IMG/VR virus record: IMGVR_UViG_3300029951_000071
Span: 1-37,988 of that record
DNA: 37,988 nucleotides
Source of the DNA: a virus
Reading direction: 5' to 3' (one strand)
In this document: positions 2,806-12,102 of the stretch, piece after piece
Layout of the letters: each line of letters opens with the position of its first letter
Position numbering within the stretch: position 1 is the first letter of the stretch
Notes under the pieces: model-generated
Seen by the model: the letters and a program-made list of their open reading frames with translations, nothing else
Told to the model about the DNA's origin: nothing
The model's database searches: none
Program-made: the position numbers and the translations under genes

Positions 2806-4959
2806 TTAACCTCTTGGGACTCCGCCCGCAATCTGGTCGGGATGAATGGCGCCGGCCGGTTGCTGGGCCGCCTTACCCGGTGCTGGTTGCGCGCCAGGGC
2901 GGGGCGTACCGGCCACACCTGGCGCTGCGCCACCGCCCGGAATTCCTGGCTGGCCGCCTTGCGGCTGTTGCGCCGCCATGGCCATCTGCCGCTTTTTCTG
3001 CAACTGCTGCATGTGCGCCTGCATGTGATTCCGAATCAAGCCGGCTGGGTCTTTGGAAATCTCCCCTGCCTTGTGATGCTCCTGCAGGTGCTGCACATCG
3101 TCGTCAAGCTCGTGAACTTCGACCATAAAGCCGTTGATCAGCATTTCGTTTTCAATGCCAGCATCGACCGTGTACTTGTTCCTATCGTCTATCAGAATTC
3201 TACCCGAAAGTTCCGAACCGAAAACATTGTCTGTCAGTATCTCCAAAATTGGGGCAATGTCAAGCTTTCTTCCATTCAACTGTTGTGGGGGGATGCCGCG
3301 CAACACGTTCATGGTCGAAATTTGCTGTTGCATCATCTGCATGTTCTTGACGTACTCGGTGCCAACCCATTGGAAAAAGTAGCGATTGCCCCATTCGTTC
3401 GGCGGGACTTTCTGCATTTTTGCCTGGACGCCGATTTCTCCCATCGTCATGATCGTGATGTCATCCTGGCGGAACTGACTGTCGTATTCGAACATCCGTT
3501 CGAGGATTGGATTCAGGATTTCCTCTTCAAAGCGCTCGGCATGGTCCATGATCGGAACGGATTGTTCCTGCTGCTGCGCGCCCATGGCGCCAGCGTTTTT
3601 CCGACCTGCGGGCATCTGACCCATCATCATGGGATTAACGTCCATGCCCTGCTGAATGCGCTGCTCGATGATCTGGGCCTGCTGCATGGCATCCTTCCAT
3701 ACTGCGGGGAAGGTCGCAAACTTGGTTGTGTTCGGATCGACCGGCCATACGGAAGCCAAGCCGATGACCAGCGAAGCCCAGTTCGGGTTTTTCTCCGGGT
3801 CGATCATGGTAATCGGCATATTCGAGTACATGGCGGAGTCCTGGCCCATGTTGAAAGTATCGTTCAGGCTCCACTGTAGCCACTTGACCGCCTCGACCGG
3901 GCTTTGTCCATTGAACGAGCCGGCCAGTCGATCAACCGGCGCGGAAATTTGCGGCCGCTTCTGACCCCATTGGGGAGCCTTGACCAGCCCGATTATTTCG
4001 TCTTCGCCGGTAAAGTAGATGTACGCCAAGACCTTCTTGCCGTCGCCGAAGTCGATGCGCGCCGTGGCCTCGAATATCAGCGCGAACTTATTGGTTCCCT
4101 CGGTCTGGATGCCGGCGTCGCCGACGCGCTTCTTTTCGGGGTTGTTTTCCTCGCGAGTCTTTTTCGTTTCCATCCACTCGCCGACATCCCTCACATTGTC
4201 GGGTAGGATAAAAATCCCTTCGTCTATCATCTTTTCGATCTGACCTTCAGACAGGCGTAGCTTTTGGCAAACGATGTGCGCCTTCTCGATGTCATTGCAG
4301 GTGGGCGGGATAACTACCAAGTCTTCGGTAGCGAAATCGGTAATCGTCGGCCCCTGCTCGACCACATCAGCCGATTCGATAACTTCTTCCTCGCTCTCAA
4401 TGTCCACGGCCTCGCCATCCAATTCCTCGACGCCTGGATTGCGCTTGATCATGTCGGAAACGTTGCGAATCTCGCTGAACCAATCGACGTACACATTCCA
4501 TTGCCCAGTCACATCGCCGGCATTGTAGACTGAACGGCAAACAGATTTCAGCTTGGTCGCCCGGATGTAATGCTCAAGCAATGACAGAACGGCAGTCGGG
4601 CGCAGGCTATCTGTGCCGATGGCATCGACATGCTTGTACTTAGTGGGGAAGTTCTGTTTCAGAGCGCGCTTGGAGCGGGCGCGGATGCAGTCTCGAACTG
4701 CGGGGATGTAGCACGTGTCGTTGCCGTTGTATTTCTGATTGCCGTCCGGGATGGCGTTGTAGATGTTCCAATATTCGGAGATAGCGGTATCGGCTTCCTG
4801 CCGATTTTCGTATGCCTTGCGGATCGTCGGATAGAACTTGGCGCATGTCTTGTAGGGCTTGCTGTTCTTTTTGTCGGCCCAATTTTCTATTTTTTCAGCG
4901 GACGATTCCCCATCCTTGGTGGATTTTTTTGATTCGTCGTCAGTTTTTTTCTTCGCCAT
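2806..4959 (-). CDS. Portal protein
   Basis: 717 residues. Start chosen at the ATG 4959, which overlaps the terminase stop (TAATG) and has GGAAA before it; an upstream in-frame start would add nine residues. The protein begins with a Lys/Ser/Glu-rich tail and continues with a long helical body (YENRQEADTAISEYWNIYNA, WLQWSLNDTFNMGQDSAMYS). It ends in a Gln/Met-rich helix and a Pro/Gly/Gln-rich tail of about 60 residues. Size, position directly after the large terminase and before head genes, and the helix-rich body with a central alpha/beta region fit the large portals of podoviruses. The portal forms the dodecameric ring through which DNA enters and leaves. Confidence 0.85.
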   Translation of the reverse strand: MAKKKTDDESKKSTKDGESSAEKIENWADKKNSKPYKTCAKFYPTIRKAYENRQEADTAISEYWNIYNAIPDGNQKYNGNDTCYIPAVRDCIRARSKRALKQNFPTKYKHVDAIGTDSLRPTAVLSLLEHYIRATKLKSVCRSVYNAGDVTGQWNVYVDWFSEIRNVSDMIKRNPGVEELDGEAVDIESEEEVIESADVVEQGPTITDFATEDLVVIPPTCNDIEKAHIVCQKLRLSEGQIEKMIDEGIFILPDNVRDVGEWMETKKTREENNPEKKRVGDAGIQTEGTNKFALIFEATARIDFGDGKKVLAYIYFTGEDEIIGLVKAPQWGQKRPQISAPVDRLAGSFNGQSPVEAVKWLQWSLNDTFNMGQDSAMYSNMPITMIDPEKNPNWASLVIGLASVWPVDPNTTKFATFPAVWKDAMQQAQIIEQRIQQGMDVNPMMMGQMPAGRKNAGAMGAQQQEQSVPIMDHAERFEEEILNPILERMFEYDSQFRQDDITIMTMGEIGVQAKMQKVPPNEWGNRYFFQWVGTEYVKNMQMMQQQISTMNVLRGIPPQQLNGRKLDIAPILEILTDNVFGSELSGRILIDDRNKYTVDAGIENEMLINGFMVEVHELDDDVQHLQEHHKAGEISKDPAGLIRNHMQAHMQQLQKKRQMAMAAQQPQGGQPGIPGGGAAPGVAGTPRPGAQPAPGKAAQQPAGAIHPDQIAGGVPRG

Positions 4960-6956
4960 TATTTCCTGCCGGGGAGTGCCGACCAATACGGAATACCAGT
5001 TTGGTTCCTAGCATTCATGGCCGGTTTCGCCGCATTATCTGGCCTGTTGATCGCAAAAGTCAAGCATTCGAGCGCCTCCATCAGCGTGCGCGCAGGACCG
5101 CGCTCGGGTTCACTGCCACGTTCGCCGCCCGACTTCACCGGCCAGTTATACCCCTGTGCCATGGCCTGCATGACGTGCCGCGCATTGGAGTCAACACCAA
5201 GCAGCCTGCGCCCGCGCATCTCGGTCCGCAGCATCGATGCGAGCGAGCCGCGCAGCGCTTGGCTGTACTCGGAGCGGTTCGCCCGCCAGCCGGAATCCTT
5301 CAGCGCGGCAACCAGGGGGTTCCGTCCCACTTGATCGTAGGCATCCCCAGGTATCCAGGAGGTGACTGATCTTCCCGGATAGCTAGCGCGTACGAGTTTT
5401 GCAATAGCGGGGATAGCATCTCCGGGGAGCATTGGAGAGGTCCAGTCGGCCAGTACCGTGAGGTAGTCTCCGTCGAAATCGCACAAGACTGCGCACGTCT
5501 CAGCGCCGCTTGAGCTCGCCGCAAAAAGAAGGGGGGTCCTGACCTTTGAGATAAAATCGTAGATGATGTTGACTTGCCCGAAGTCACCATAAATCGGAAG
5601 TCCGGAAAATACGCGAGGTGCATAGGCCAGAGCATTGAGAACATCCTTCAACCCCGAAGGGAAGTTGAGCAACTGCGAAATCAGCCGGGCATGCTTCTGC
5701 CGGCCACCGACGAAAACAACATCCTTGGCCTCGAAGAACGGCTGCAAGCCCATGATGAACTGGTTCTTGTCGCGGTCCTGCGGCGCGTTCATCGGCTTGA
5801 TGGTCACCATCTGGCCGGTCTCAAGCATCTTGGCGCGCATCGGCTGTAGCAGCCATTCATCAAGCGAGTTCTTTTCGATGTGAACGTCGCAATCATCGTT
5901 CCGCGCCGACGCATCGAAGGCCAGATTAACCACGCCATCAGGCTTCAAGAATGCGCCATCAGATTCGTGCACGTAAATCCGCGTGCCGATTTTGGAAATA
6001 ACCACGTCCCCGGTCTGGTCGGACTTCTTGATGTCGGTCGTGCGGGCCGGGTCGATGATGACCTTGCGCGGCGCATACATGCGCGGCGCCACATCCTCGA
6101 ACACGAAATTTTCTTCAACGAACGACTTGCCCATTTGTCCGGTGGGAACCAGCATGTATTCCTGGTTGAACTGCGCCAGCAAGCCCTCAGTCTGCATTTG
6201 GTCGCGCTTCTTGCGAATCCATTCCATGGGGTAGCGGTCAGGCCAAGCAGAGATGCATTCGGGGTCATCGATATCACGATCGCAAATAGGGAACATGCCA
6301 TTGACGAAGTTAGGCGACGAGCGCGCACGCGTCATGATGCAATCGCCGGCAAGCGGTGTGCCGGTGATGCGGAGCTTCCCGAGTTCGGTATCCATGGCCG
6401 GAATAAGCTCGATGAAAATGCGGTCCCAGTTTTGCTTAACGGTCAACGTGTCGCGCACCCGCTCTTTGTTCTCGATGTCGTCAAGGTAAGCCCGATCCGG
6501 GCGGTGTTGCAAGTGCTTGTAACCACGGATTTCCTCTTCCCATCCATGCGCCTCGATGCAAACCCCGTTCGGCAGAACGATCTTGTTTTCCGACCACGTA
6601 TAGCCTTTCCCAGTCTGCTTGCCGAACAAGTTGTAAATCCGCATGTTCGTCGCGAGTTCGTACTTGATGGCCTCAAGACGCTGGCAGGCCTTCGTGTAGG
6701 TCTCGCCGAAAATAAGAGCGTAGTGGAAATTTTCGAACAGTCCTTCAATCGCCAAAAACTCTTCGGAAAGAGTTGATTTCGCGCCCTCCCGGAATGCTTC
6801 AATCGACACCAAAGGATCGGAGGCGCGCCACATGTCCATGATCGAAACGTGGAACATTGGGCTGGCTTGCCGGTGACGATGAGGAAACAACATCGCCGAC
6901 GCCAAAGCACGATCCTCGCTGATGTGCTTGAGGGTGGTTTCTTTGTTTTGGCTCAA
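4959..6956 (-). CDS. terL: Terminase large subunit
   Basis: 665 residues; ATPase and nuclease of the DNA-packaging motor. The N-terminal ATPase half shows a Walker-A-like REGAKST (about 56-62), a Walker B DRAYLDDIE (about 154-161) and a coupling motif RITGTP (about 196-201). The C-terminal half opens with the RNase-H-like nuclease motif KVIIDPARTTD followed by GDVVI. There is an extra C-terminal region of roughly 170 residues after the expected nuclease core, with its own acidic VLCDFDGDY and IPGDAYD segments. The start is TTG at 6956, overlapping the stop of the previous gene (TTGA). This is the first large gene of the late operon. Confidence 0.9.
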   Translation of the reverse strand: MSQNKETTLKHISEDRALASAMLFPHRHRQASPMFHVSIMDMWRASDPLVSIEAFREGAKSTLSEEFLAIEGLFENFHYALIFGETYTKACQRLEAIKYELATNMRIYNLFGKQTGKGYTWSENKIVLPNGVCIEAHGWEEEIRGYKHLQHRPDRAYLDDIENKERVRDTLTVKQNWDRIFIELIPAMDTELGKLRITGTPLAGDCIMTRARSSPNFVNGMFPICDRDIDDPECISAWPDRYPMEWIRKKRDQMQTEGLLAQFNQEYMLVPTGQMGKSFVEENFVFEDVAPRMYAPRKVIIDPARTTDIKKSDQTGDVVISKIGTRIYVHESDGAFLKPDGVVNLAFDASARNDDCDVHIEKNSLDEWLLQPMRAKMLETGQMVTIKPMNAPQDRDKNQFIMGLQPFFEAKDVVFVGGRQKHARLISQLLNFPSGLKDVLNALAYAPRVFSGLPIYGDFGQVNIIYDFISKVRTPLLFAASSSGAETCAVLCDFDGDYLTVLADWTSPMLPGDAIPAIAKLVRASYPGRSVTSWIPGDAYDQVGRNPLVAALKDSGWRANRSEYSQALRGSLASMLRTEMRGRRLLGVDSNARHVMQAMAQGYNWPVKSGGERGSEPERGPARTLMEALECLTFAINRPDNAAKPAMNARNQTGIPYWSALPGRK

Positions 6957-10432: not shown

Positions 10433-10720
10433 ATGGCATCAGTAATTGGTAAAAAGGTAATTGTTCGCACATATTCGGCAGGCGTGCATTTCGGCACATT
10501 GGCGGCGCTCGACGGCAAGAATGCCACGCTGACCGATACGCGCCGAATCTGGTATTGGGAGGGCGCATTCACACTTTCGGCAATCGCGCTCGATGGACTG
10601 AGCAAAAAATCAAAACTTAGCGTGGCGGTGCCGGAATTGATCCTGACCGAAGCAATCGAAATTATCCCCGTCAGCGACAAGGCCGAGAAGATTTTGACTG
10701 ACATGCTAGCTCACAAGTGA
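10433..10720 (+). CDS. DUF6948-like phage protein
   Basis: 95 residues. Start is the ATG at 10433, six bases after AAGGA. The protein has an N-terminal small beta-barrel-like region (KKVIVRTYSAGVHFGTLAAL, then DTRRIWYWEGAFTLSAIALDG) and a C-terminal half ending in LTEAIEIIPVSDKAEKIL. The G.HFGTL, RRIWYW.GA.TL and EIIP elements match a small family I know from many phages as DUF6948; its function is not known. It ends directly before a strong hairpin, so it may be the last gene of the first early transcript. Confidence 0.7.
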   Translation: MASVIGKKVIVRTYSAGVHFGTLAALDGKNATLTDTRRIWYWEGAFTLSAIALDGLSKKSKLSVAVPELILTEAIEIIPVSDKAEKILTDMLAHK

Positions 10721-10755
10721 TTTTTTCGGCCCGTCAATAACGGGCCGAAATTTCT
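10721..10755 (+). terminator. Terminator-like hairpin after the first early genes
   Basis: A perfect 11-bp stem (TTTCGGCCCGT at 10724-10734 with ACGGGCCGAAA at 10740-10750) with loop CAATA, followed by TTTCT. This is a strong rho-independent-type hairpin with a modest U tract. It sits between the DUF6948-like gene and the (GGGNNC)n array, so the recombination genes beyond it would need read-through, antitermination or their own promoter. Confidence 0.65.
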
Positions 10756-10759
10756 CATC

Positions 10760-10858
10760 ATGCTGACAGACGAAGACAAAGAAGGCGGGTCCGGGTCCGG
10801 GTACGGGCACGGGGACGGGCACGGGGACGGGTACGGGCACGGGGACGGGTCCGGTTAA
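10760..10858 (+). CDS. Short Gly-X repeat protein (first copy)
   Basis: 32 residues: the leader MLTDEDKEG followed by 11 Gly-X units (X = Ser, Tyr, His or Asp) and TAA. The leader and first repeat units are identical in DNA to the next gene, so the two are a duplication. No good ribosome site precedes it. It may be a decayed or alternative copy, or the open frame may exist only because the hexamer repeat has no stop codons. Confidence 0.4.
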   Translation: MLTDEDKEGGSGSGYGHGDGHGDGYGHGDGSG

Positions 10859-11170
10859 TTGGAGACTGCAATGCTGACAGACGAAGACAAAGAAGGCGGG
10901 TCCGGGTCCGGGTCCGGGTACGGGCACGGGCACGGGCACGGGGACGGGCACGGGGACGGGCACGGGCACGGGTCCGGGCACGGGTACGGGTCCGGGTCCG
11001 GGTCCGGGTACAGGCACGGGGACGGGCACGGGTCCGGGTACGGGTACGGGCACGGGTACGGGTACGGGTACGGGCACGGGTCCGGGTCCGGGGACGAGTA
11101 CGGGTGCGGGTACGGGTCCGGGTCCGGGCACGGGTACGGGGACGGGGACGGGGACGGGGACGGGGACGGG
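10787..11170 (+). repeat. (GGGNNC)n hexanucleotide array, G-quadruplex type
   Basis: Two blocks of GGGNNC units, 11 units at 10787-10852 and 45 units at 10898-11167 plus a final GGG. They are separated by a spacer that includes a second copy of the 27-base leader. Almost every unit keeps GGG and the last C; the middle varies among TC, TA, CA and GA. G-triplets recur every six bases with three-base loops, so the plus strand satisfies the canonical quadruplex pattern many times over and the minus strand is C-rich. All six frames are open across it for this reason. Confidence 0.9.
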
Positions 11171-11173
11171 TGA
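10871..11173 (+). CDS. Gly-X repeat protein (second copy)
   Basis: 100 residues: MLTDEDKEG, then 45 Gly-X units and a last Gly. X is almost always Ser (TCC), Tyr (TAC), His (CAC) or Asp (GAC), with single Cys and broken units (YRHG, DEYG). The ATG has GGAG six bases upstream, better than the first copy, so translation is plausible. A Gly/His/Asp/Tyr repeat would be disordered and could bind metal, but the DNA repeat rather than the protein may be what matters. The next gene (RecE-like) starts 12 bases after the stop. Confidence 0.5.
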
Positions 11174-11184
11174 TAAAGGAAAAA

Positions 11185-12102
11185 ATGATGCAACCGGGAA
11201 TTTTCCAAATTTCAGACGAGCAATACCATGCCGATCCGTGCAGCGAGCCGAGTCTGTCAAGAAGTCTCCTGAAGTTGCTCGTGAATGAGTCGCCGCGCCA
11301 CGCATGGTACGCGCATCCGCGCCTCAATCCAGCATACCAGGGCGAGGAAAAAAGTAAGTTCGACCTAGGTACGGTGGCGCATGCGCTGGTGCTGCAAGGA
11401 ATCGATCGAATGGAAATCGTGGACGCGACAGACTGGCGCACCAAGGCGGCAAAGGAGGCGCGAGACGATGCGAGGCTGCGTGGGATGGTGCCTCTGCTCA
11501 CCCATCAAGCGGAAGACGCTCTGGCGATGGTTGGGGCCTTCCATGCGGCTGTTGCGAACTGCGCCGACTTGTCGGGCATCACGCTTGCCGATGGGAAGGC
11601 CGAACAGGCGATTATTTGGCGCGACATACAACGAGGCGGAGAATACGTTATGTGCCGCGCCAAGCCGGATTGGCGGTCCAACGATGGAGCATTGTTGATC
11701 GATTACAAAACAACCAGTGGAAGCTCATCGCCGGCTGCGGCAGAGCGTCAGATAATGGGGCAACTGGACGGCGACATCCAGGCGGCGTTCTACCTGCGCG
11801 GAAACAAGGCAGTTTGCGGAGTCGATGCGCAATTCGTTTTTGCGGTTCAGGAAACGAGTGCGCCTTATGCCGTCTCGTTCATCGGCGTGTCGCCAACCTA
11901 CATGGCGCTCGGCGAGGATAAATGCCGCGTCGGTATCTCGCTATTCGGCGAATGTCTGCGGCGCAACGAATGGCCGGGATTCGAGAAGCGTATTTATTGG
12001 AGCGAGCCGAAAGCTTGGCAGTTGGGCGCGTGGGCTGATAAGCAGAATTTGGAGGCGATGAATGGCAGTGATCAGGATGCCCAAAGGCAAGGTTCCGAAT
12101 AG
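11185..12102 (+). CDS. RecE-like exonuclease (PD-(D/E)XK)
   Basis: 305 residues. I chose the ATG at 11185 because AAAGGA lies just upstream; the frame is open further back only through the hexamer array. The C-terminal half contains [11 protein letters not shown] followed by LLIDYKTTS, the D...D-x-K catalytic core of the RecE/exonuclease VIII (DUF3799-type) nucleases. A conserved [20 protein letters not shown] start and a Gln-rich helix ([20 protein letters not shown]) also fit. The enzyme resects duplex ends to give 3' single strands for annealing. It overlaps the HNH gene by 41 bases and is followed by a DUF1351-like protein and a Sak4-like ATPase, a normal phage recombination module. Confidence 0.85.

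Follow-up and report, generated by a model that had tools for sequence, protein, structure and literature searches.

A long run of G-rich hexamers lies directly ahead of a RecE-like exonuclease gene in a 37,988-nt stretch of viral DNA (hereafter the window). We asked whether DNA, RNA or an encoded protein is the form under selection at this locus. The run comprises two blocks on the plus strand, one of 11 GGGNNC units (10787..10852) and one of 45 units, 43 of them exact, followed by a final GGG (10898..11170). This agrees with the roughly 56 hexamers in two blocks between 10787 and 11170 that had been described; 54 of 56 are exact GGGNNC, and the other two read AGGCAC (11012-11017) and GAGTAC (11096-11101). 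The middle dinucleotide is TC (15), CA (15), TA (13) or GA (12), as claimed, but not only these four, as one TG also occurs. Shuffled sequence gave a mean of 0.01 runs of three units, whereas the window has 46, all within the array. Twelve non-overlapping G3+N1-7 motifs on the coding strand make the array quadruplex-capable on paper; elsewhere in the whole window that strand holds one such motif, and the opposite strand holds none. A hairpin (10724..10750, plus strand; stem 10724-10734/10740-10750) does precede block 1, and the array does end 15 bases before the RecE-like gene (DUF3799, PHROG exonuclease VIII; 11185..12102, plus strand), with an intervening stop codon at 11171-11173. An assembly artefact is made less likely by a second contig (L009), possibly not independently assembled, that shares an identical 825-nt stretch with the array, and by arrays in complete genomes of cultured phages. 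At 974-1078 of the window, tandem repeats with periods of 15, 21 and 42 bases overlap minus-strand ORFs.

The hexamer blocks make up nearly all of two tandem plus-strand ORFs. ORF A (10760..10858) encodes 32 aa, consisting of the leader ATGCTGACAGACGAAGACAAAGAAGGC (MLTDEDKEG) and a Gly-X array up to the stop. ORF B (10871..11173), with a Shine-Dalgarno-like GGAG (10861..10864, plus strand) 6 bases ahead of its ATG, encodes 100 aa with the same leader, 45 Gly-X units and an acidic end. With their 111-bp period, the two ORFs, which the original prediction had overlooked as a pair, look like a tandem duplication. That the repeats encode Gly-X in frame was confirmed: GGG is Gly, the partner codon is TCC, TAC, CAC or GAC, and the X residues are Ser, Tyr, His and Asp plus one Cys, with Gly itself replaced twice (Arg, Glu). 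Neighbouring genes use GGG for just 20 of their 117 Gly codons, and the codon uniformity of the array therefore reflects hexamer expansion and not genome preference. A tblastn search of phages with the array protein returned nothing, probably since BLAST masks low complexity, and relatives were therefore sought through DNA patterns and the partner gene. Because a GGGNNC scan is GGG-biased and also picks up unrelated simple repeats, we used a degenerate scan and partner-anchored scans. Gly-X ORFs of this kind occur in many unrelated viral contigs.

A functional G-quadruplex would be expected to keep its motif in relatives and to hold a fixed position beside a regulated gene. To compare codons, we used 157 distinct arrays gathered through the neighbouring DUF6948 gene, so that codon was not a selection criterion. 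Gly is encoded by GGC in 126 of them, GGT in 14, GGG in 13 and GGA in 4, and the quadruplex motif is kept in only 13 of 157. Arrays that preserve the protein and lack GGG runs, which the original prediction had proposed as a test, thus occur naturally. The nearest relative (L326, on the same contig as L034) uses GGG, and most of the next relatives inspected use GGC. Nor is the position fixed, as arrays in phages are followed by genes for SSB, primase, helicase, Erf or exonuclease VIII. RecE was rejected as a specific partner because downstream genes vary between phages; one contig (L010) has a 51% identical RecE without an array in the upstream stretch read. The hairpin spacer was not found in the near relatives inspected, where spacers are short, and the RNA of the region folds no better than shuffled sequence (z = -0.55, with a program lacking a quadruplex model). 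We therefore found no support for a quadruplex role of the array, at the DNA or RNA level, be it in switching or tuning the recombination genes or as a hot spot of recombination: despite the twelve motifs, the place directly ahead of the RecE-like gene and the GGG shared with the nearest relative, the prevalence of synonymous arrays, the diversity of downstream genes and the folding score make this reading extremely improbable. The RecE-like gene is a neighbour that does not belong to the conserved module, and the adjacency is incidental.

What persists in relatives while the codon varies is Gly-(Ser/Tyr/Asp). Ser takes 35%, Tyr 29% and Asp 23% of X positions in the relatives' arrays, Ala is nearly absent, and Lys, Arg, Pro and Leu scarcely occur across codon families (Lys plus Arg, 18 of 5304). 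Reading frames stay open across 30-90 units, and the last four X positions are enriched in acidic residues (126 versus 98 ± 8; 0 of 2000 shuffles). The choice between DNA, RNA and protein as the selected form, which the original prediction had left open, is thereby answered for protein as far as sequence comparison can tell: the array is apparently the coding sequence of a simple, fast-changing phage protein with Gly at every second residue.

Gly codon and third bases are near-uniform inside an array and differ from array to array. In the cultured Pectobacterium phages Taid, Ymer, Abuela and Amona, the DUF6948 genes are at least 99.75% identical to that of Taid, and the array ORFs have three lengths (85, 73, 73 and 67 codons, respectively). 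The order of X residues differs among the four (Ymer and Abuela being the same), with a shared leader, similar acidic ends and GGC as the Gly codon. The suggested length variation is thus borne out for arrays of this kind, which differ in length and order among close relatives; the available part of the paper on these phages does not mention the array. Repeated blocks exceed shuffles in 42 of 123 arrays (longest 6.3 versus 4.7 units), and identical neighbouring units are rarer than expected (0.86), together pointing to in-frame duplication and reshuffling of blocks while a mixture is kept. Homogenisation together with selection for a mixed composition would, we infer, best account for uniform third positions beside diverse X residues. 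The best reading of these patterns is that selection acts on the composition of a Gly/Tyr polymer, presumably a disordered one, and not on its order.

Several contigs carry more than one array ORF (L175, L135, L090 and L074), including five in L175 with leader and tail shared, so that array genes have multiplied repeatedly, and not in the window alone. In Chlorobiaceae phage CV-1-33 (L407, 3286-3531), the annotated frame of the ORF that follows DUF6948 reads Ala-(Met/Leu/Lys), and the Gly frame of the hexamers appears to hold stops, as in a frame-switched or decayed array. Two C-terminal domains are recurrently fused to arrays, 'LHAT..KWKGERxWIVAL' (L023, L038, L066, L070, L072, L095 and L180) and 'FAHGxT...WHxxLTGSC' (L143, L181, L183, L213, L236, L241 and L458); those tested matched nothing in Pfam or PHROG. 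In the Pectobacterium phages (L399-L405, ~3469-4485), the array is followed by a convergent gene annotated 'membrane-associated protein', which is longer in Sabo.

Upstream of the array gene in the window lies its partner, the DUF6948 gene (10433..10720, plus strand; 95 aa), which the original prediction had not recognised and which is separated from ORF A by the hairpin. Starting from arrays, a DUF6948-like gene was found at 81 of the 86 loci whose upstream context spans 400 nt or more, directly upstream in 77. Starting from DUF6948, an array was present within 900 nt at 117 of 121 evaluable viral loci (97%, a figure that applies to the main DUF6948 branches) and at 39 of 42 evaluable loci in cellular genomes, reciprocal counts that rest on the best-scoring 80 loci per scan. 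As a control, we took 78 loci with GGGNNC repeats that had not been assigned to the Gly-X class. Six of them matched DUF6948, and when read, each of the six turned out to hold a Gly-X array that was cut short or of different composition; among the remaining loci the count is 0 of 72. In many cases the array gene begins before DUF6948 has ended, an overlap as seen in coupled translation. Of the five array loci counted without an upstream DUF6948, one (L155, ~4911-5620, plus strand) has DUF6948 and a Gly-X array in a single in-frame ORF, followed by a second array ORF; it is the sole natural fusion seen and could stem from a sequencing error.

Array composition also follows the DUF6948 branch. 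Loci of the A2 branch carry Ser-rich arrays (S 40%, N 1%; 59 loci), and those of the A6 branch Asn-containing ones (S 9%, N 16%; 19 loci). The same comparison sets a divergent DUF6948 branch (hhalign E 1.9e-10), with Tyr/Asp/Asn arrays and little Ser, against the main branch with Ser/Tyr/Asp. Part of this co-variation may reflect shared descent. Two scans of viral contigs gave at least 563 and at least 577 confirmed DUF6948 relatives; a 46-sequence DUF6948 alignment was too diverse to serve in a scan. The pair occurs in genomes assigned to many phyla, many of the genome-contig hosts being metagenome bins of uncertain host assignment. It is also present in Neisseria gonorrhoeae and N. sicca (L457, L455 and L453) with Gly-(Asn/Ser/Tyr/Asp) arrays, and in a plasmid collection DUF6948 occurs seven times across three records, two gonococcal ones accounting for three occurrences each.

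Structure prediction points to an Sm-like small beta-barrel for the upstream protein. The single-chain AlphaFold (AF2) model of the window protein is a small beta-barrel (pLDDT 96.2, pTM 0.87) with predicted strands E8-13, E18-27, E30-41, E66-71 and E74-79. Its top 50 PDB hits are all either Sm/LSm proteins or chains of snRNPs or the spliceosome, among them SmAP1 (E 6e-4; TM 0.57 by query and 0.72-0.77 by target), at Foldseek E-values of only ~1e-3 in a class of small beta-barrels that cross-match easily. The protein modelled for the divergent branch (pLDDT 85) likewise had Sm/LSm proteins as its first PDB matches (E 1.3e-3), and the N-terminal helix and five-stranded bent barrel of the Sm fold are present in the predicted models. 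At the sequence level, Pfam returned DUF6948 alone and no Sm profile, NCBIfam gave no match, and the DUF6948 profile matched no PDB chain at E<=1. As there is no sequence similarity to solved Sm proteins, the predicted Sm-like fold is a fold-level lead.

Together, these data favour a reading in which the array makes up the main part of a protein-coding gene, tandem-duplicated here, that forms the second member of a conserved pair with Sm-like DUF6948. We put its probability at about 0.6, a value that covers the sequence-based core and the Sm-like assignment, the assembly step discussed below lying outside it. For that core, the genomic comparisons demonstrate selection as protein, conserved pairing, a composition kept independently of codon and order, and in-frame reshuffling. 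The two genes look like the halves of an undescribed, widespread two-gene phage module and not like a DNA or RNA recombination switch. The pair is very common and spans many phyla, and none of the libraries searched gives it a function; in the open-licence literature, we found no paper that names DUF6948 or describes the pair. DUF6948 gains a testable partner and a fold, and the arrays, free in order, length and codon choice, offer a clean natural case for studying how selection acts on nothing but composition in proteins of low complexity.

How the two products might work together is suggested by the array protein itself, a low-complexity chain of Gly alternating with Ser, Tyr or Asp (or His, Asn or Phe). 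A Gly/Ser chain with regular Tyr and Asp and hardly any basic residues presumably resembles a disordered sticker-and-spacer polymer. Such a Gly/Tyr-rich chain could act in trans as a tail on a DUF6948 ring or oligomer, and the two proteins would then assemble with RNA (or ssDNA) in the early phase of infection. The proposal of a detached tail draws on this sticker-and-spacer character, on the acidic end and on Acinetobacter Hfq, in which altering the Gly-rich repeats and the acidic tip changes RNA binding (PMC11617691). By this analogy, RNA-protein assemblies formed by a detached low-complexity tail and an Sm-like protein are a tentative possibility. The fuller version, in which an Sm-like protein and a separately encoded, composition-coded and ever-reshuffled disordered polymer give rise to early nucleoprotein condensates as a widespread, undescribed phage system, must be regarded as speculative and somewhat doubtful.

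The main rival to this assembly mechanism is a counter-defence or toxin-neutralising pair, with the polymer as decoy or scaffold against a host factor, DUF6948 as its carrier and array variability as the signature of an arms race. Hypervariability between near-identical phages, the early-region location and the wide host range of the module would all fit. However, a kept composition with near-random order is unlike typical epitope diversification, there is no known host target, and neither product matches a profile in PADLOC, which holds mostly defence and not counter-defence proteins; we consider this explanation unlikely. Strict Gly-X alternation with Ser/Tyr is also a feature of silk-like repeats, and the chain might pack into sheets or fibres as silk does, chaperoned or anchored by DUF6948. 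The Asp content of ~23% and the near-absence of Ala are unlike silk, and the annotated downstream genes provide no structural-gene context, which makes a structural polymer improbable. Neutral or selfish expansion of hexamers in a dispensable ORF, with a product lacking function, would account for the homogenised third positions, the fast-changing lengths and the long repeated blocks (6.3 versus 4.7 units). It sits poorly with the restricted choice of X across codon families, the long open frames and the tight two-way pairing with DUF6948, and is in our view highly improbable.

We know of no system that combines an Sm-like gene with a separate Gly-X array gene. The upstream gene of the pair belongs to Pfam DUF6948 (PF22253), a family to which no function is assigned, by profile score (longer ORF, E=2.3e-29; 101.8 bits versus a cut-off of 27), and the partner array lies outside that domain. 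Gly-rich low-complexity sequence in phage proteins is known from a survey of prokaryotes and phages, whose available part reports aromatic residues as under-represented, in contrast to Tyr at ~29% of X here, and does not describe the DUF6948-array pairing (PMC6821194). Yeast Lsm4, according to the available part of the source, likewise joins an LSm fold to a low-complexity region that promotes granules, its Q/N-rich tail acting in P-body assembly; that tail is in cis, of other composition and eukaryotic (PMC5087693). Acinetobacter Hfq, to which no sequence similarity was detected for the phage module, resembles it in combining an Sm-type fold with a long Gly/aromatic-rich chain (a GGFGGQ-repeat C-terminal domain) and an acidic end, and repeat number matters there (PMC11617691). 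In contrast, the phage chain is a separate gene, follows strict Gly-X alternation with Ser/Tyr/Asp and is hypervariable. Whereas Hfq and Lsm proteins carry their low-complexity tails in cis, the proposed phage tail would act in trans, and the pair may turn out to be the LSm/Hfq-with-tail design split over two genes.
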